Origin: Nocardioidaceae bacterium
Lineage (GTDB): Bacteria > Actinomycetota > Actinomycetes > Propionibacteriales > Nocardioidaceae
DNA: 34,996 nucleotides
Reading direction: 5' to 3'
Assembly: GCA_013361955.1 (NCBI GenBank)
Contig: JABFXA010000197.1
Span: forward strand, 1-34,996
Shown here: positions 1,182 to 13,810 of the stretch, piece by piece
How positions within the stretch are numbered: the stretch's first letter is position 1
Layout: every line of letters starts with the position of its first letter
Notes under the pieces: model-generated
Database searches by the model: none
What the model was told of the DNA's origin: nothing
Seen by the model: only the letters and a program-made list of their open reading frames with translations
Position numbers and translations under genes: made by a program

Positions 1182-2285
1182 ATGCCGAGCCCCGAACGTA
1201 CCGCCGCACCGCGCGAGATCGTGGCCCGGGCCCCGAAGGTGCTGCTGCACGACCACCTCGACGGCGGGCTGCGCCCGGCCACGGTCGTCGAGCTGGCCCG
1301 GGCCGCCGGTCACGAGCTGCCCGCGACCGACCCCGACGCGCTGCGCCGCTGGTTCGAGGACTCCGCGAACAGCGGCTCGCTGGAGCGCTACCTGGAGACG
1401 TTCGAGCACACCGTCGCGGTGATGCAGACCGCGGACCACCTGCGCCGCGTCGCCCGTGAGTGCGTGCTGGACCTCGCCGACGACGGGGTGGTGTACGCCG
1501 AGGTGCGATACGCCCCCGAGCAGCACCTGGCCGACGGGCTCAGCCTGGAGCACGTCGTCGAGGCGGTCCGCGACGGGTTCGCCGAGGGCGAGGCCGAGGC
1601 GGAGCGCGACGGCCGGCCGATCGTGGTGCGCCAGCTGCTCACCGCGATGCGGCACCAGGCCCGCAGCCGCGAGATCGCCGAGCTCACCGTCGCCTACCGC
1701 GACCAGGGTGTCGTCGGGTTCGACATCGCCGGCGCCGAGGCCGGGTTCCCGCCGACCCGGCACCTGGACGCGTTCGAGTACCTGCAGCGCGAGAACGCGC
1801 ACTTCACCATCCACGCCGGCGAGGCGTTCGGGCTGCCGTCGATCTGGCAGGCGATCCAGTGGTGCGGCGCCGACCGGCTCGGGCACGGCGTGCGGATCAT
1901 CGACGACGTGGTCGCCCTCGACGGCGGCGCCCCGCGGCTGGGCCGGCTGGCGTCGTACGTGCGGGACAAGCGGATCCCGCTGGAGATGTGCCCGTCGTCG
2001 AATGTCCAGACCGGGGCCGCCGCGTCGATCGCCGAGCACCCGATCGGGCTGCTCGCCGCGCTCCGGTTCCGGGTCACCGTGAACACCGACAACCGGCTGA
2101 TGAGCGGCACCTCGATGACGCGGGAGATGCAGCAGCTGGTGGACGCGTTCGGGTACGGCGTCGCGGACCTGCGCTGGTTCACCATCAACGCGATGAAGTC
2201 CGCGTTCTTGCCGTTCGACGAGCGGCTCGCGATCATCGAGGAGCAGGTCAAGCCGGCGTACGCCGTGCTCGGGGCGGTCTCCTAG
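1182..2285 (+). CDS. add: Adenosine deaminase
   Basis: [32 protein letters not shown]...; metal-binding HDHLDG, HAGE, and late [22 protein letters not shown] motifs typical of adenosine deaminase. Confidence 0.93.
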
Positions 2286-2322: not shown

Positions 2323-3507
2323 ATGGAGGAGACCGCTTCGTCGCTGCTGCTGATCGTCGCCTGCAGCGTGCTCGCCCCCCTGCTCGCCGGTCTGGTCCCG
2401 CGGCGGCTGCTTCCCGAGGTGGTGGTGCTGCTGGTGCTCGGGGTACTGATCGGGCCGCACGTGCTCGGGCTGGCCAGCACCGTCCCGCCCATCGAGCTGC
2501 TGCGCCAGCTCGGCCTGGGCCTGCTGTTCCTGCTGGCCGGCTACGAGATCGAGCTCGACGAGCTGCGTGGCACCGGCGGCCGCCGGGCGATGTGGACCTG
2601 GCTGGTCTGCCTGGGCCTGGCGCTCGGCATGGTCGCGCTGCTCGGCGTGATCGGGACCGTGCACGCCGAGGCCGCGGTCGCCATCGCGCTCACCTCGACC
2701 GCGCTCGGCACCCTGCTGCCGATTCTCAAGGACAGCGGCCGGCTGGAGACCCCGCTGGGCGGCACCGTGCTGCACCACGGGGCGTTCGGGGAGCTCGGCC
2801 CGGTCGCCGCGATGGCCCTGCTGCTGGGCTCCCGCGACCCGGCGATCTCGCTGGTGGTGCTGATCGGGTTCGCCGTCCTGGCGCTGCTGGTCAGCGTGTT
2901 CGCCCAGCGGGTGCAGCGGGTGAGCGGCCGGGTCGTCGACCTGGTCCGCGCCGGCGCGGAGACCACCGGGCAGACCCTGGTCCGGCTGAGCATGCTGCTG
3001 CTGGTCCTCCTCGGCTCGCTGGCGCTGGCGTTCGAGCTGGACGTGGTGCTCGGCGCGTTCGCGGCCGGGATCGTGCTGCGCCAGCTGCTGCCGAGCGGGC
3101 ACGAGCGGCTCGAGCTGCGGCTGAACGGCATCGCCTTCGGCTTCTTCATCCCGGTCTTCTTCGTCACCTCCGGGATGGCCATCGACCCGGCGGCGGTGGC
3201 CAGCAAGCCCGGCGTGCTGCTGGTGTTCGTGGCGATGATCCTGGTGCTGCGCGGTGGCCTGGTGTACCTCGCCGAGGGGCTCGGCCGGCCGGCGACGTAC
3301 CGGCCGCGCGAGCGGGTCGGGATCGCGTTGTACGCCGCGACCGGCCTGCCGATCATCGTCGCGGTCACGTCGACCGCGGTGTCGGCCGGGTCGATGAGCC
3401 CGGCGAACGCATCGGTGCTGGTCGCCGGGGGAGCGCTGACCGTGCTGCTGTGCCCGATGGCCGCGACCCTGCTGCTCGGCGAGCCGGCCGCCGTCGACGA
3501 GAGCTAG
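2323..3507 (+). CDS. Cation:proton antiporter (CPA2/KefB-type membrane domain)
   Basis: ~394 aa, many hydrophobic helices; LLPEVVVLLVLGVLIGPHVLGL, FLLAGYEIELDEL, FFIPVFFVTSGMAID; SD GAGGGG before ATG. Confidence 0.85.
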   Translation: MEETASSLLLIVACSVLAPLLAGLVPRRLLPEVVVLLVLGVLIGPHVLGLASTVPPIELLRQLGLGLLFLLAGYEIELDELRGTGGRRAMWTWLVCLGLALGMVALLGVIGTVHAEAAVAIALTSTALGTLLPILKDSGRLETPLGGTVLHHGAFGELGPVAAMALLLGSRDPAISLVVLIGFAVLALLVSVFAQRVQRVSGRVVDLVRAGAETTGQTLVRLSMLLLVLLGSLALAFELDVVLGAFAAGIVLRQLLPSGHERLELRLNGIAFGFFIPVFFVTSGMAIDPAAVASKPGVLLVFVAMILVLRGGLVYLAEGLGRPATYRPRERVGIALYAATGLPIIVAVTSTAVSAGSMSPANASVLVAGGALTVLLCPMAATLLLGEPAAVDES

Positions 3508-4130
3508 CCGCGGGCGCGCACCCCGGCCAGCACGCCGTCGCCGTCCGGCCACCGCCCGTTGAGCGTCTCGTCGGCGGTCACCGGGGTGCCGACCCGCCGG
3601 ACCACGACCAGGTCGAGGTGCCCGGTGTGCACCAGCGTGCTGTCCTCCTGGTCGGCACAGGTGACCGCGCCGATCTGCGGCACCTCGGTGCCCGGGTCGC
3701 CGCTCCCGGTCACGGTGGTGGTGGGCTGCCGCTCGTGGCGCACGCCCTCCTCGTCCTCCCACTCGAGCGCGGCCTGCCGCCCGCCGGTGAGCATCGCCCG
3801 GACCACCGCCGAGGCGAAGACCGGGTCGGCGCAGCCGTCGTACACCCAACGGGTGCCGAGGGCCGAGTGCTCGGTGGTGCCGACCAGGTGCGCGTCTGCG
3901 CCGTCGAGCGGTGTGCCGCGGTAGGTCAGCGGCACGTGCAGCAGCGGTCCGTCGCCGGCGCGGACCAGCAGTCCCTCGATCCCGACCTCGCCGGCCGGGT
4001 CGTCCAGGCGGTACGAGCCGACCTTCGCCAGCCCCGCGGTCGCGCCCGCCCAGGGCCGGCCCGGCAGCCAGCCCGCCAGCAGCTCGATCTTGCCGGGGAC
4101 CACGGACGCGCGCGTGAAGAGGAAGGCCAT
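3504..4130 (-). CDS. Stand-alone maltokinase N-terminal cap-like domain protein
   Basis: MAFLFTRASVVPGKIELLAGWLPGRPWAG... with later WVYDGCADPVFASAVVRAML, the actinobacterial MaK N-cap pattern; no kinase domain follows. Confidence 0.65.
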   Translation of the reverse strand: MAFLFTRASVVPGKIELLAGWLPGRPWAGATAGLAKVGSYRLDDPAGEVGIEGLLVRAGDGPLLHVPLTYRGTPLDGADAHLVGTTEHSALGTRWVYDGCADPVFASAVVRAMLTGGRQAALEWEDEEGVRHERQPTTTVTGSGDPGTEVPQIGAVTCADQEDSTLVHTGHLDLVVVRRVGTPVTADETLNGRWPDGDGVLAGVRARG

Positions 4131-4142
4131 GGGTCCAGGGTC

Positions 4143-4748
4143 TCAGCAGCCGACCAGCCGGGACAGCCGGTCGAACGCCTGGTCGCCGGTCGCCGGCGTG
4201 CAGCCGCGGGCGACCGCGTGCGCGACGACGCCGGGCTCGCTGCGCATCAGCCGCCAGCCGCGGCGCACCAGCACCAGCGGCGGCTTGCGGCGCTCGCGCA
4301 GGTCGCGGGTGAGCCGCCGCCAGAAGGTCAGCATCGGCCGGTTCCGCACGCACACCGCGTCGGCGAGCACGCCCCGGCGCGCGAGGCCGTCGACCACCTC
4401 CTGCGCGAACAGCCCCTCCGCCACGACGTACGCCGCCCCGCCGGCCTCGACCCGGTGCGTGCCGGTGCGCCCGTCGTGGGCGAGGTCGTAGACCGGCAGG
4501 TCGACGGCGCCCTCGCGGCAGAACGTCTCCAGCGCGTCCAGTGCGTCCTCGCGGCTCCACGACCGCGGGTCGTCCCAGTCCACGATCCGCTGACCGTGAC
4601 CGAGCGTGGTCCACGGCAGCGTCGGGTCGTCGCCGTCCTTGTAGAAGTCGTCGAGGTTCACCACCGGCAGCCCGCACCGGTCGTGCAGCCGCCGGCACAG
4701 CCGGGACTTGCCGGACCCCGAGGGCCCGGCGACCACGATCACCTTCAC
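4143..4748 (-). CDS. Uridine kinase family / P-loop nucleoside kinase
   Basis: MKVIVVAGPSGSGKSRLCRRL (Walker A), VNLDDFYKDGDDPTLPW. Confidence 0.85.
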   Translation of the reverse strand: MKVIVVAGPSGSGKSRLCRRLHDRCGLPVVNLDDFYKDGDDPTLPWTTLGHGQRIVDWDDPRSWSREDALDALETFCREGAVDLPVYDLAHDGRTGTHRVEAGGAAYVVAEGLFAQEVVDGLARRGVLADAVCVRNRPMLTFWRRLTRDLRERRKPPLVLVRRGWRLMRSEPGVVAHAVARGCTPATGDQAFDRLSRLVGC

Positions 4749-4755
4749 CCGCGCG

Positions 4756-5622
4756 TCAGATCCCGACCGGGTGCCACACCGTCTTGGTCTCGAGGAACCG
4801 GGTCATCCGGTCGAGTCCCGGGTCGAGCGTCCAGTCCGGCTCGGCGGCCTCCGGGCGGAGCACCCGCTTGAGGTTCTCCGCCGCGGCGCGCTCCAGGTCG
4901 GCGGCCGTCGCGGGGTCGCTGACACCGGTCAGGTCGAGGGCGTTGACGTCCATGTGCGCGGCCAGCGTCGGCACCGTGTCGCCGATCGGGCCGGTCAGCA
5001 CGTTGACCACCCCGCCGGGCACGTCGGAGGTGGCCAGCACCTCCGACAGCGTGATCGCCGGCACCGGCCGCTCGGCCGACGCGGCGACCACGACGGTGTT
5101 GCCGGTGACCACGACCGGCGCGACCACGCTGACCAGGCCGAGCAGCGACGACTCCTGCGGGGCCACGACCGCGACCACACCGGTCGGCTCGGGCAGCGAG
5201 AAGTCGAAGTACGGCGCGGCCACCGGGTTCGTGCCGCCGACCACCTGGGCGAGCTTGTCGGCCCAGCCGGCGTACCAGACGAGCCGGTCGACCGTCGCCT
5301 CCACCGACGCCTGCGCCTGCCGCTTGGTCTCGCCCTCGCCGCGCTGCACCTCGTCGACGAGCTGGGCGGCGCGGCTCTCCAGCACCTCGGCGATCCGGTA
5401 GACCACCTGGCCGCGGTTGTACGGTGTGCGCGCCGACCAGCCGGCGAACGCCTTGCGGGCGGCCTGCACGGCGTCGCGGGCGTCCTTGCGGGAGGCCTGC
5501 GCGGCGTTCGCGAGGAACTTCCCCTTGGCGTCCTCGACGACGTAGGACCGGCCGGACTCCGAGCGCGGGAAGGCGCCACCGACGTACAGCTTGTAGGTCT
5601 TCCTCACGTCGATGCGCGTCAT
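4756..5622 (-). CDS. Half-length aldehyde dehydrogenase-like protein (288 aa) lacking catalytic residues
   Basis: MTRIDVRKTYKLYVGGAFPRSESGRSYVVED...RRMTRFLETKTVWHPVGI-type tail; ALDH N-terminal domain only; ATGA overlap with upstream ALDH at 5619-5622. Confidence 0.85.
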   Translation of the reverse strand: MTRIDVRKTYKLYVGGAFPRSESGRSYVVEDAKGKFLANAAQASRKDARDAVQAARKAFAGWSARTPYNRGQVVYRIAEVLESRAAQLVDEVQRGEGETKRQAQASVEATVDRLVWYAGWADKLAQVVGGTNPVAAPYFDFSLPEPTGVVAVVAPQESSLLGLVSVVAPVVVTGNTVVVAASAERPVPAITLSEVLATSDVPGGVVNVLTGPIGDTVPTLAAHMDVNALDLTGVSDPATAADLERAAAENLKRVLRPEAAEPDWTLDPGLDRMTRFLETKTVWHPVGI

Positions 5623-7061
5623 CGGATGTAACCCTCCAGTCCGTGCCGGCCGCCCTCGCGGCCGTAGCCCGACTCCTGGTAGCCGCCGAAGGGGCTCGTC
5701 GGGTCGAACTTGTTGAACGTGTTCGCCCAGACCACCCCGGCCCGGAGCTTCTCGGCGGTCCAGAGGATCCGCGAGCCCTTGTCGGTCCAGACGCCGGCGG
5801 ACAGGCCGAACGGCGTGTTGTTCGCCTTCTCGACCGCCTCGGTCGGGGTGCGGAAGGTGAGCACGGACAGCACCGGCCCGAAGATCTCCTCGCGGGCGAT
5901 CCGGTGCGCCTGGGAGACCCCGGTGAACACCGTCGGCGGGAACCAGAACCCGTGCGACGGCAGGTCGCACGCCGGCGACCAGCGCTCGGCGCCCTCGGAC
6001 TCGCCGACCTCCGACAGCTGCCGGATCTTCGCGAGCTGCTCGGCGGAGTTGATCGCGCCGACGTCGGTGTTCTTGTCCAGCGGGTCGCCGACGCGCAGCG
6101 TGGCCATCCGCCTCTTCAGCCGCTCGAGCACCTCGTCGGCGACGGACTCCTGCACCAGCAGCCGCGAGCCCGCGCAGCAGACGTGGCCCTGGTTGAAGAA
6201 GATGCCGTTGACGATGCCCTCGACGGCCTGGTCGACGGGCGCGTCGTCGAACACGATGTTCGCGGCCTTGCCGCCGAGCTCCAGGGTCACCTTCTTGTCG
6301 GTGCCCGCGACGGTCCGCGCGATCAGCCGGCCGACCTCGGTGGACCCGGTGAACGCGACCTTGTCGACGTCCTCGTGCGCGACGATCGCGCGACCGGTGC
6401 CGCCGGCGCCGGTGACGATGTTGACCACGCCCGGCGGCAGGTCCGCCTGCTGGCAGATCTCCGCGAACAGCAGCGCAGTGAGCGGCGTGGTCTCGGCCGG
6501 CTTGAGCACGACGGTGTTGCCGCAGGCGAGCGCCGGCGCGATCTTCCAGGCCAGCATGAGCAGCGGGAAGTTCCACGGGATCACCTGGCCGGCGACACCG
6601 AGCGGCTGCGGGTCGGGACCGAAGCCCGCGTGCTCGAGCTTGTCGGCCCAGCCGGCGTAGTAGAAGAAGTGCGCTGCCGCGAGCGGTACGTCGACGTCGC
6701 GCGACTCCTTGATCGGCTTGCCGTTGTCGAGCGACTCGAGCACCGCGAGCTCGCGGCTGCGCTCCTGCAGGATGCGGGCGATCCGGAACAGGTACTTCGA
6801 GCGCTCGCGCCCGGACATCCGCGACCAGACCCGGGTGTACGCCTTGCGGGCCGCCTTCACCGCGAGGTCGACGTCGTGCTCGGAGGCCTCGCTGACCTCG
6901 GCCAGCACCTCCTCGGTGGCCGGGCTGATCGTCTTGAACGACCGCCCGCCGACCGGGTCGACGAACTCGCCGCCGACGAACAGCCCGTACGACGACCGGA
7001 TGTCGACCACCGCGCGCGACTCGGGGGCCGGCGCGTAGTCGAAGACGTTCTTGTCAGCCAC
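5619..7061 (-). CDS. Aldehyde dehydrogenase, full length (480 aa)
   Basis: IPWNFPLLMLAWKIAPALACGNTVVLKPAE, VTLELGGKAANIVF (Glu), FFNQGHVCCAGSRLLV (Cys), EEIFGPVLSVLTF. Confidence 0.95.
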   Translation of the reverse strand: MADKNVFDYAPAPESRAVVDIRSSYGLFVGGEFVDPVGGRSFKTISPATEEVLAEVSEASEHDVDLAVKAARKAYTRVWSRMSGRERSKYLFRIARILQERSRELAVLESLDNGKPIKESRDVDVPLAAAHFFYYAGWADKLEHAGFGPDPQPLGVAGQVIPWNFPLLMLAWKIAPALACGNTVVLKPAETTPLTALLFAEICQQADLPPGVVNIVTGAGGTGRAIVAHEDVDKVAFTGSTEVGRLIARTVAGTDKKVTLELGGKAANIVFDDAPVDQAVEGIVNGIFFNQGHVCCAGSRLLVQESVADEVLERLKRRMATLRVGDPLDKNTDVGAINSAEQLAKIRQLSEVGESEGAERWSPACDLPSHGFWFPPTVFTGVSQAHRIAREEIFGPVLSVLTFRTPTEAVEKANNTPFGLSAGVWTDKGSRILWTAEKLRAGVVWANTFNKFDPTSPFGGYQESGYGREGGRHGLEGYIR

Positions 7062-7066
7062 AGCGA

Positions 7067-8065
7067 TCAGTCCAGCGTGAAGTAGTCGGGGCCGGAGTAG
7101 CGGCCGGTGGCCATCTTGGTGCGCTGCATCAGCAGGTCGTTCAGCAGCGTGGAGGCGCCGAACCGGAACCAGTCCGGGTCGAGCCAGTCGGGGCCGGCCA
7201 CCTCGTTGACGGTGACCAGGTACTTGATCGCGTCCTTCGCGGTGCGGATCCCACCGGCCGGCTTCACGCCGACCATCCGCCCGGTCGCCTCGCGGAAGTC
7301 GCGCACCGCCTCGAGCATCACCAGCGTGACCGGCAGTGTCGCGGCCGGCTGCACCTTGCCGGTCGAGGTCTTGATGAAGTGCGCGCCGGCGAGCATCGCC
7401 AGCCAGGAGACCCGGCGGACGTTGTCGTAGGTCTGCAGCTCGCCGGTCTCGAAGATCACCTTCAGGTGCGCGTCGCCGCAGGCCTCGCGGACCGCGACGA
7501 TCTCGTCGTACACCTGCTGGTAGCGGCCGGCCAGGAACGCGCCCCGGTCGATCACCATGTCGATCTCGTCGGCGCCGGCCTCGACCGCGTCGCGGGTGTC
7601 GGCGAGCTTGACGTCGAGCGCGGCCCGGCCGGACGGGAACGCGGTCGCCACCGACGCGACGTGCACGCCGCTCGCGCCGAGCGCCTGCCGGGCGGTGCCG
7701 ACCATGTCGGGGTAGACGCAGACCGCGGCGACCGACGGGCAGCCCGGGTCGGCGGGGTCGGGCCGCACTGCCTTCGCGCACAGCGCGCGGACCTTGCCGG
7801 GGGTGTCCTGGCCCTCGAGCGTGGTGAGGTCGACCATCCGGATCGCCAGGTCGAGCGCGAACTCCTTGGCGGTGGTCTTGATCGACCGGGTGCCGAGGGA
7901 GGCGGCGCGGGCTTCGGCGCCGACCTGGTCGACGCCGGGCAGGCCGTGCAGGAAGCGCCGCAGCGCGGCGTCCGACCCGGTGGCCTCGGCGAGGTGCACG
8001 GGGAGGTCGGCGGGCTCGGCCGGGGACGGCGCGGTGGCCGCGGTCGAGCTCGGGGGAGGGGTCAC
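7067..8065 (-). CDS. deoC: Deoxyribose-phosphate aldolase (GTG 8065 preferred; ATG 8077 alternative)
   Basis: ATAFPSGRAALDVKLADTRDAVEAGADEIDMVIDRGAFLAG, DAHLKVIFETGEL, FIKTSTGK, MVGVKPAGGIRT (catalytic Lys motifs). Confidence 0.94.
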   Translation of the reverse strand: MTPPPSSTAATAPSPAEPADLPVHLAEATGSDAALRRFLHGLPGVDQVGAEARAASLGTRSIKTTAKEFALDLAIRMVDLTTLEGQDTPGKVRALCAKAVRPDPADPGCPSVAAVCVYPDMVGTARQALGASGVHVASVATAFPSGRAALDVKLADTRDAVEAGADEIDMVIDRGAFLAGRYQQVYDEIVAVREACGDAHLKVIFETGELQTYDNVRRVSWLAMLAGAHFIKTSTGKVQPAATLPVTLVMLEAVRDFREATGRMVGVKPAGGIRTAKDAIKYLVTVNEVAGPDWLDPDWFRFGASTLLNDLLMQRTKMATGRYSGPDYFTLD

Positions 8066-8072
8066 AGGCTTC

Positions 8073-8078
8073 AGCATA
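8073..8078 (-). promoter_or_regulatory. -10 element TATGCT, predicted leaderless deoC transcript
   Basis: TATGCT followed by 7 nt then GTG at 8065. Confidence 0.45.
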
Positions 8079-10492: not shown

Positions 10493-12154
10493 TCACAGGC
10501 CGGCCGCCGCGGACAGGTCCGCGCGGATCGCGTCCAGGCGGCCGGCCGCGCTGATCCGGGCCGCGTCGACGCCGCCCTCGTCGTCGGCCTCGACCGGCAC
10601 CACGACCTCCAGGTAGCACTTGACCTTCGGCTCGGTGCCGGACGGGCGGACGATCACCCGGGCGCCCTCGGCGAGCCGGAACCGCAGCCCGTCCGTCGGG
10701 GGCAGGCCGCCGTCGCCCTCGGCGAGGTCGTCGACCTGCTCGACGGCGAGCCCGCCCAGCGACGCCGGCGGCCGGGACCGCAGCCGGTCCATCACCTCGG
10801 CGATCAGCGCGAGGTCGGTGACCCGCACCGAGAGCTGGTCGGTGGCATAGAGGCCGTGGCCGCGGGCGATCTCGTCGAGGCGGTCGGCGAGCGTGCGGCC
10901 CTCCGCCTTGAGCAGTGCCGCGAGCTCGACCACCCGCAGCAGCGCCGAGACGCCGTCCTTGTCCTTGACCAGGTGTGGCGCGACGCAGTACCCGAGCGCC
11001 TCCTCGTAGCCGTACACCAGGCCCTCGACCCGGCCGATCCACTTGAACCCGGTCAGCGTCTCCTCGTGCGGGTGCCCGTGCGCGGCGGCCAGCACCCCGA
11101 GCAGCGACGACGACACGATCGAGCTGGCGTACACCCCTTGCGCGCCGGTGCGGAGCAGGAAGTCGCCGAGGAGGGCGCCCACCTCGTCGCCGCGCAGCAT
11201 CCGCCAGCCGTGCGGTCCGGGGACGGCGACCGCGCACCGGTCCGCGTCGGGGTCGTTGGCGACCACCACATCGGCACCGACCTCCGCGGCCAGCGCCATC
11301 GCGAGGTCCATCGCGCCCGGCTCCTCCGGGTTGGGGAACGCGACGGTGGGGAAGTCCGGGTCGGGCTCGGCCTGCGCCTCGGCGACGTGCGGCGCGGCGA
11401 AGCCGGCCCGTCGCATCGCCTCCACGACGGTCCCGCCGCCGACGCCGTGCAGCGGCGTGTAGACCGTGACCAGGTCGCGCGGCCCGTCGCCGACGAGCCC
11501 GGCGACGTCGTCGAGGTAGTCGGTGAGCACCTCGGGCCCGAGCCGCTCCCAGCCGTCGGCACGGGCGACGTCGGCCACCCGGCCGACCGCGTCGATGCGG
11601 GCCGAGATCTCGGCGTCGGCCGGCGGCACGATCTGGCTGCCGTCGCCGAGGTACACCTTGTAGCCGTTGTCCTGCGGCGGGTTGTGGGACGCGGTGACCA
11701 TCACGCCGGCGACGCAGCCGAGCCGGCGGATCGCGTGCGCGAGCACCGGGGTCGGCAGCGGTTCCGGCAGCACCACGGCGCGCAGCCCGGCACCGGTCAT
11801 CACGGCCGCGGTGTCCGCGGCGAACGTCTCGGAGCCGTACCTCGCGTCGTACCCGACCACCACGGTGTCGCCCGGCCCGGCGCCCTGGTCGAGCAGGTAC
11901 GCCGCCAGCCCGGCGGCCGCGCGGATCACGACCGCGCGGTTCATCCGGTTCGGGCCGGCGCCGAGCGCACCGCGCAGCCCCGCGGTGCCGAACTCCAGGG
12001 TGCCGTCGAACCGGTCCGCGAGCTCGGCGGCCGCGACCGGGTCCGTGCCGGCCACCTCGACCAGCGCGAGCAGCTCGGCCCGGGTGCCCTCGTCGGGGTC
12101 GTCGTCGGCCCAGGCCCGGGCCCGGTCGAGCAGGTCGGTCGGTGCCGTGGTCAC
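10493..12154 (-). CDS. Phospho-sugar mutase (phosphomannomutase/phosphoglucomutase family)
   Basis: FGTAGLRGALGAGPNRMN, MVTASHNPPQDNGYKVY (phosphoserine loop), NDPDADRCAVAV, VRPSGTEPKVKCY. Confidence 0.94.
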   Translation of the reverse strand: MTTAPTDLLDRARAWADDDPDEGTRAELLALVEVAGTDPVAAAELADRFDGTLEFGTAGLRGALGAGPNRMNRAVVIRAAAGLAAYLLDQGAGPGDTVVVGYDARYGSETFAADTAAVMTGAGLRAVVLPEPLPTPVLAHAIRRLGCVAGVMVTASHNPPQDNGYKVYLGDGSQIVPPADAEISARIDAVGRVADVARADGWERLGPEVLTDYLDDVAGLVGDGPRDLVTVYTPLHGVGGGTVVEAMRRAGFAAPHVAEAQAEPDPDFPTVAFPNPEEPGAMDLAMALAAEVGADVVVANDPDADRCAVAVPGPHGWRMLRGDEVGALLGDFLLRTGAQGVYASSIVSSSLLGVLAAAHGHPHEETLTGFKWIGRVEGLVYGYEEALGYCVAPHLVKDKDGVSALLRVVELAALLKAEGRTLADRLDEIARGHGLYATDQLSVRVTDLALIAEVMDRLRSRPPASLGGLAVEQVDDLAEGDGGLPPTDGLRFRLAEGARVIVRPSGTEPKVKCYLEVVVPVEADDEGGVDAARISAAGRLDAIRADLSAAAGL

Positions 12155-12984
12155 GGGATGTCCTTCAGGTCGAGGGCCGGGCGGTGGAAGTGCTCGAGCG
12201 CCCACTCGCCGCCGGCGAAGCCGTCCTCCACCCGGTCGCGCTCGGTCGGCGCCGGCAGCTGCGTGGCCCAGTGCTCGGCGTCGTCCTCCGGGTGGTAGCC
12301 GAGGGCCCGGCCCGGCGCCAGGTCCCACCAGCCGCGGGTGTTGGCGGAGACGCCGTAGACCACCGCGTAGCCGGGGTCGGGCGCGGTCAGGCAGGCGTCG
12401 AACATCCGCACCGCGTCGTCGGGCGAGAGCCACGACGCGAGCTGGCGCAGGTTCTCCGGCTGGGTGTTGAAGGTGCCGATCCGGGTGGCCACGGCGTCCA
12501 GGCCGTGCCGGTCGACGTACAGCCGCAGCAGCGCCTCCGCTGCCACCTTGGCGACGCCGTAGAAGGTGTCCGCCCGCGGCGGCCCGTCGCTGCGAAGCGA
12601 GACCGTCCCCGGCGGTCCGGTACGTCGCTCCCGGCCGACGGCGTGGATGCTGCTGGCGTACACGATCCGGCTGACCCGGTGCCGCACCATCGCGTCGAGG
12701 AGCGCGGCGGTGGTGAGCAGGTGCGACTCGAGCTCCTCGGGGAGCGCGACCTCGGCGGGCAGGCCGGCCAGGTGCACGACCGCGTCGACGGGCGGCCGGT
12801 CCAGCTCGGCGAACACCTCCTCCACGGCGTCGGCGTCGGCGCAGTCGGCGGTGAACCAGGCGCCCGCGTACCCGTCGGGGGCGGGCACCCGGTCCAGGCC
12901 CACCACCTCGTGGCCGCGGTCGGCGAGACCGCTGCAGAGCACGCTGCCGATGCTGCCGGCGGCGCCGGTGACCAGCACCCTCAT
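12151..12984 (-). CDS. NAD-dependent epimerase/dehydratase, uronate dehydrogenase-like
   Basis: MRVLVTGAAGSIGSVL (Rossmann), FYGVAKVAAEALLRLYVDRHGL, WLSPDDAVRMF...VVYGVSANTRGWWDL..LGYHPEDDAE; 4-bp overlap with the mutase start. Confidence 0.85.
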   Translation of the reverse strand: MRVLVTGAAGSIGSVLCSGLADRGHEVVGLDRVPAPDGYAGAWFTADCADADAVEEVFAELDRPPVDAVVHLAGLPAEVALPEELESHLLTTAALLDAMVRHRVSRIVYASSIHAVGRERRTGPPGTVSLRSDGPPRADTFYGVAKVAAEALLRLYVDRHGLDAVATRIGTFNTQPENLRQLASWLSPDDAVRMFDACLTAPDPGYAVVYGVSANTRGWWDLAPGRALGYHPEDDAEHWATQLPAPTERDRVEDGFAGGEWALEHFHRPALDLKDIP

Positions 12985-12994
12985 CGCGGCCCCC

Positions 12995-13810
12995 TCAGAC
13001 CCTCGGCAGCACGCGGGCGAGCAGGTCGCCCATCCGGGTGGCCGCGGCCCGACCGGCCTCGAGGACCTCCTCGTGGTTCAGCGGCTCGCCGGTCATCCCG
13101 GCGGCGAGGTTCGTGACCAGCGAGATGCCGAGCACCTCAAGGCCGGCCTCGCGGGCGGCGATCGCCTCGAGCACGGTGGACATGCCGACCAGGTCGCCGC
13201 CGATGGTGCGGATCATCCGGATCTCGGCCGGGGTCTCGTAGTGCGGCCCGGGCAGCTGCACGTAGACCCCCTCGTCGAGGCCGTCGTCGACCTCGTGGCA
13301 CAGCGCCCGGAGCCGGGGGCTGTACAGGTCGGTGAGGTCGACGAAGTGCGCACCCTCGATCGGCGAGGTGGACGTGAGGTTCAGGTGGTCGCTGATCAGC
13401 ACCGGCGTGCCCGGCTGCCAGGTCTCGCGCAGCCCGCCGCAGCCGTTGGTGAGCACGGCGGCCCGGCAGCCCGCCGCGGCCGCGGTGCGCACGCCGTGCA
13501 CCACGGCCCGGACGCCGAGGCCCTCGTAGAGGTGGGTGCGGCCCAGGAACACCAGCAGGTGGCGGTCACCGGCGCGCACCGACCGGATCCGGCCGGCGTG
13601 CCCCTCGACCGCGGGCGGCGCGAAGCCGGGCAGGTCGGTGGTGCTCAGCTCCGCGGTCGCCTCGCCGAGCAGGTCGACGGCCGGCAACCACCCGGAGCCC
13701 ATCACCAGCGCGACGTCGTGCTTCTCGACGCCGGTGCGCTCCGCGAGGACGGCGGCGGCCTCGGCCGCGAGCTCGGTGGGGGCGGGTGCGGGGCTCTGGT
13801 CGATGCTCAC
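12995..13810 (-). CDS. Purine-nucleoside phosphorylase
   Basis: [105 protein letters not shown]. Confidence 0.95.

Follow-up and report, generated by a model that had tools for sequence, protein, structure and literature searches.

ALDH16 is, to our knowledge, a little-understood aldehyde dehydrogenase (ALDH), and we know of no settled job for its extra domain. In ordinary ALDHs each protomer carries a flap, made up of a hairpin and a C-terminal strand, which docks onto the partner protomer. A review (PMC8160307) describes the ALDH16 of Loktanella as dimeric, the dimer resembling the tetramer of classical ALDHs, and human ALDH16A1 has been described as a pseudoenzyme without a catalytic triad (PMC10650815). 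A search of the open-access literature turned up neither a split ALDH16 nor a link between ALDH16 and deoC; the original ALDH16 structure paper might mention either.

The window analysed here, a stretch of 34,996 nucleotides from a Nocardioidaceae bacterium (contig JABFXA010000197.1), carries on its minus strand a long ALDH gene (5619..7061, 480 aa) followed by a short half-ALDH gene (4756..5622, 288 aa). The initial annotation had read these as a full-length ALDH and a half-length ALDH overlapping by ATGA, and translation bore this out. The long frame opens with GTG at 7061 and closes with TGA at 5619-5621. The short frame opens with ATG at 5622, its stop codon lies at 4756-4758, and the two frames share the 4 nt of the ATGA stop/start overlap (5619..5622, minus strand), an arrangement suggestive of translational coupling. 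The motifs PWNFP, LELGGK and GHVCCAG that had been listed for the long protein were all present in its translation; the short protein, again as annotated, carries APQESS in place of PWNFP and lacks the Glu and Cys segments. Aligned to the Pfam Aldedh profile (461 positions), the long protein covers positions 4-456, compared to positions 5-232 only for the short protein.

The top match of the long protein among solved structures was 6MVR, the Loktanella protein and the one crystallised bacterial ALDH16, over residues 10-476 (E 9e-178), with 595 bits as against 425 bits for the next-best solved ALDH. Its N-terminal ALDH domain is thus closest to that of ALDH16 among solved ALDHs. An AF2 model of this subunit alone was mediocre (pLDDT 77, with the last 35 residues below 50, possibly owing to a shallow alignment or to modelling without the partner) and served for the fold match only. 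The short protein, searched as a single sequence, matched residues 500-766 of 6MVR best, tail included (E 5e-61), while ordinary ALDHs reached E 2e-28 at best, with most alignments ending at residue 255. A 53-member profile of the short protein likewise favoured ALDH16 (E 2e-77) over ordinary ALDH (6e-40), and its AF2 model (pLDDT 90.6) retrieved 6MVU, 6MVR and 6MVS as the top three matches with a TM of 0.89 over 287-288 columns, compared to a TM of about 0.81 over 250-260 columns only for ordinary ALDHs. The tail of the short protein, RMTRFLETKTVWHPVGI, had been regarded as distinct. It proved not to be unique: the C domain of ALDH16 finishes in a segment with which it can be aligned (EVKTIWVPYG), and it resembles the strand found at the C-terminus of ordinary ALDHs (..YTEVKTIWITL).

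A tree of 102 domains, including 20 ordinary actinobacterial ALDHs, placed the long proteins with the N domains of fused ALDH16s in one group and the short proteins with the fused C domains in another, each with a support of 100 and both apart from the 20 ordinary ALDHs. The equivalents of Cys, Glu268, Lys192, Ser246, Trp168 and Asn169 were retained in all 165 long proteins and all 12 fused N domains, whereas Cys, Glu and Lys were lost in every short protein and every fused C domain, and cofactor residues are likewise absent from the short protein. The latter is thus a stand-alone, shorter second ALDH-like domain without catalytic Cys and Glu, closest to the C-terminal domain of ALDH16, and the ALDH16 second domain fitted it better than the N half of ordinary ALDHs by sequence, profile, structure and tree. 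The proposal that the pair is an ALDH16 split over two polypeptides was therefore supported, each half best matching its own part of 6MVR, and orthology of both halves to ALDH16 is established at the level of sequence. An ordinary ALDH beside an unrelated fragment was considered and ruled out, the short protein not being nearest to ordinary ALDH N halves by matches, profile or tree. ALDH16 is otherwise defined by both domains residing in one polypeptide; here they are encoded by two genes with an ATGA overlap.

The split was found at every usable actinomycetotal locus (165/165), these being the loci with a complete catalytic gene, gathered from relatives, a scan of genome contigs and a phylum-wide sample with some near-duplicates among the sets. 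Among 297 Actinomycetota genomes sampled, about 70, or close to a quarter, had the short gene. A search with the long protein returned a clear orthologue, at 695-895 bits, in 10/10 genomes picked for the short gene, and none of 40 genomes without the short gene gave a match above 417 bits. The comparison of split and fused forms covers Actinomycetota and Proteobacteria, in the latter of which the fused gene was found on 12 plasmid loci (11 alpha, 1 beta). Separately, a plasmid of Rhizobium leguminosarum bv. viciae 248 (L220:4501-4605) matches an ALDH16 C domain over its last 35 residues only, with no gene annotated there and with RbsD and sugar transporters alongside; it is apparently a decayed ALDH16, and several further R. 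leguminosarum plasmids gave the same partial C-domain match.

Upstream of the pair, deoC, encoding deoxyribose-5-phosphate aldolase (7067..8077, minus strand; 336 aa from an inferred start), ends 5 nt before the catalytic-subunit gene. This operon recurs: deoC was upstream on the same strand at 130 of the 135 split loci with enough sequence, with a median of 11 nt between matches, and lay directly before the fused gene at 12/12 loci. The window around the pair also contains genes of nucleoside salvage, which provide pathway context, namely an adenosine deaminase (1182..2285, plus strand, start approximate), a phosphohexomutase-family protein that is a candidate phosphopentomutase (10493..12163, minus strand, start uncertain) and a purine-nucleoside phosphorylase (12995..13810, minus strand). 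Directly downstream of the short gene is a uridine-kinase-like P-loop kinase (4143..4748, minus strand), which at 48 bits falls far below the udk cut-off of 180 and is possibly another nucleoside or sugar kinase. Also downstream of the pair is a CG0192-related protein with a maltokinase N-cap domain (3504-4130, minus strand), slightly under the cut-off of that model.

DeoC yields acetaldehyde and glyceraldehyde-3-phosphate. An ALDH directly behind deoC in two phyla, together with the nearby phosphorylase and phosphomutase genes, makes acetaldehyde removal the simplest role, and the gene neighbourhood thus points to acetaldehyde from DeoC as the substrate, possibly handed over directly. As this assignment comes from the neighbourhood, and aldehyde specificity could not be read from the sequence here, the pair might also be a split ALDH16 acting on a different aldehyde that arises when nucleosides or sugars are broken down; with the adjacency to deoC shared by the split form and the fused one across two phyla, we consider this unlikely.

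The two proteins differ in the parts by which ALDH protomers dock. The hairpin loop has 19-24 residues in the 20 ordinary ALDHs. Its median length is 11 residues among the long proteins (n=165), and the fused N domains (n=12) have 9 residues. In the short proteins, by contrast, it was 22 residues long in 169/169 cases, and 19 in the 12 fused C domains. Moreover, the K-x-V strand with which ordinary ALDHs finish is missing from long proteins and fused N domains, both of which terminate directly after ..LEGY/EYL. The C-terminus of the short proteins is KTVWHPxG, a predicted strand. Judged by sequence, the flap is therefore present on the short protein or C domain and absent from the long protein or N domain. 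This complementary loss and retention suggests that one chain has taken over catalysis and the other the docking arm. In a conservation test by circular shifts, flap and tail did not stand out significantly from the remainder of the short protein, values as high being reached in 49 of 288 shifts. In eight of the 165 long proteins (L012, L015, L031, L042, L088, L103, L109 and L144) the place of the flap is taken by an insert of 16-20 residues, often Gly/Ser-rich and apparently a loop and not a flap.

Pseudoenzymes often act as regulators. The short protein could accordingly be envisaged as a free-standing regulator or scaffold, for example a bridge between DeoC and the ALDH that channels acetaldehyde, and no constitutive structural subunit; the presence of deoC beside the pair in nearly all loci would agree with such a role. 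However, the counterpart of the short protein is covalently part of the enzyme in fused orthologues, and the flap and strand absent from the enzyme are kept by the short protein alone, which makes a regulator or scaffold improbable. The absence of a catalytic domain and of any active-site residue might also be taken as signs of decay, with the short gene as a duplicate or remnant of an ALDH that is turning into a pseudogene beside an ordinary ALDH. Against this, conservation of the short protein, a point the initial annotation had left to be checked, was found across many Actinomycetota families, tail included, and its full length and C-terminal motif are kept phylum-wide. In addition, the start codons overlap, none of the genomes tested had the short gene on its own, and in the tree the short proteins cluster with fused C domains. 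Decay is thus highly improbable.

The junctions between long and short genes (n=165) comprised 54 of the ATGA type, 32 one-base overlaps, 53 longer overlaps and 26 gaps, classes which depend on a heuristic choice of start, and the short gene was in a different reading frame from the long gene at 158 of the 165 loci. Gaps above 150 nt were seen in Nonomuraea and Sphaerisporangium. At one locus (L181; G067:C494:8000-15200) about 1.2 kb of other sequence separates the catalytic and pseudo-subunit genes, which are still close, and deoC was not found within the fetched stretch. Fused homologues are known, and yet the idea of a fused ALDH16 gene interrupted by a frameshift or by misassembly can be set aside with near certainty, as can sequencing error or chance, the split recurring in 165 loci with many junction types, a different frame in 158, gaps of more than 100 nt and, in one case, the ~1.2 kb in between.

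Three observations lead us to infer that the long and short proteins associate: the coupling of their genes, their co-occurrence without exception across 50 genomes and the complementary flap loss. It is very likely that the two genes encode an obligate heteromeric, two-polypeptide ALDH16, probably alpha2beta2, which would oxidise acetaldehyde derived from deoxyribose-5-phosphate; its physical assembly, stoichiometry, substrate and cofactor are inferred. The 480-aa protein would be the enzyme and the 288-aa protein a pseudo-subunit, consisting of a dead nucleotide-binding domain together with the two elements now missing from the enzyme, its dimerisation flap and its C-terminal strand. The flap of the pseudo-subunit would dock on the catalytic subunit where a second ALDH protomer would otherwise sit, and two such heterodimers would then join into an alpha2beta2 complex resembling the ordinary ALDH tetramer in outline, as the fused ALDH16 dimer does. 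This complex would catalyse the NAD-dependent oxidation of the acetaldehyde that DeoC frees from deoxyribose-5-phosphate, and deoxynucleosides would thereby be converted into glyceraldehyde-3-phosphate and acetate.

With regard to the order of the split and fused states, fused N domains were nested within split ones in a quick LG tree, and the split and fused groups were each monophyletic in a mixture-model tree. We can only tentatively suggest that ALDH16 began as, and in Actinomycetota stayed, an obligate heteromer in which one protomer lacks catalysis and the other the flap; the one-chain form of Proteobacteria, and perhaps of animals, would be a later fusion, and the original job would have been to clear acetaldehyde as deoxynucleosides are broken down, DeoC possibly passing it on directly.

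The adjacency to deoC and the flap exchange are new details relative to the initial annotation, which was made from the DNA letters. The link to deoC across two phyla suggests a concrete physiological role for ALDH16, and the trading of flap against active site between the subunits would represent a clean case of a homodimer becoming an obligate heterodimer. The two-gene form offers an opportunity, which the fused form does not, to produce the catalytic half free of the extra domain and to see what is lost. A bare label of "aldehyde dehydrogenase" on the short gene would mislead.

Human ALDH16A1 shares with this pair the family name and, going by literature descriptions, the two-domain build; in contrast, the catalytic triad absent from the human protein is kept in the catalytic subunit described here. 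The latter has the ordinary fold and active site of classical ALDH1/2-type tetramers, which are, however, homo-oligomers with a flap and C-terminal strand of its own on each protomer. The fused ALDH16 of plasmids in Sinorhizobium, Paracoccus, Agrobacterium, Phyllobacterium, Caballeronia and others has the same domains and likewise directly follows deoC, but its domains are joined by a linker of roughly 20-40 residues and its neighbours are ribokinase, RbsD and sugar transporters. Closest of the described systems is the ALDH16 of Loktanella sp. (PDB 6MVR/6MVS/6MVT/6MVU), whose two parts are orthologous to the two halves here, whose second domain is without active-site residues and has the same end motif, and whose first domain has lost the flap, as measured on fused homologues. 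While the Loktanella enzyme is a single chain of 767 aa with a linker, in the Nocardioidaceae bacterium the same two parts are encoded by two overlapping genes.
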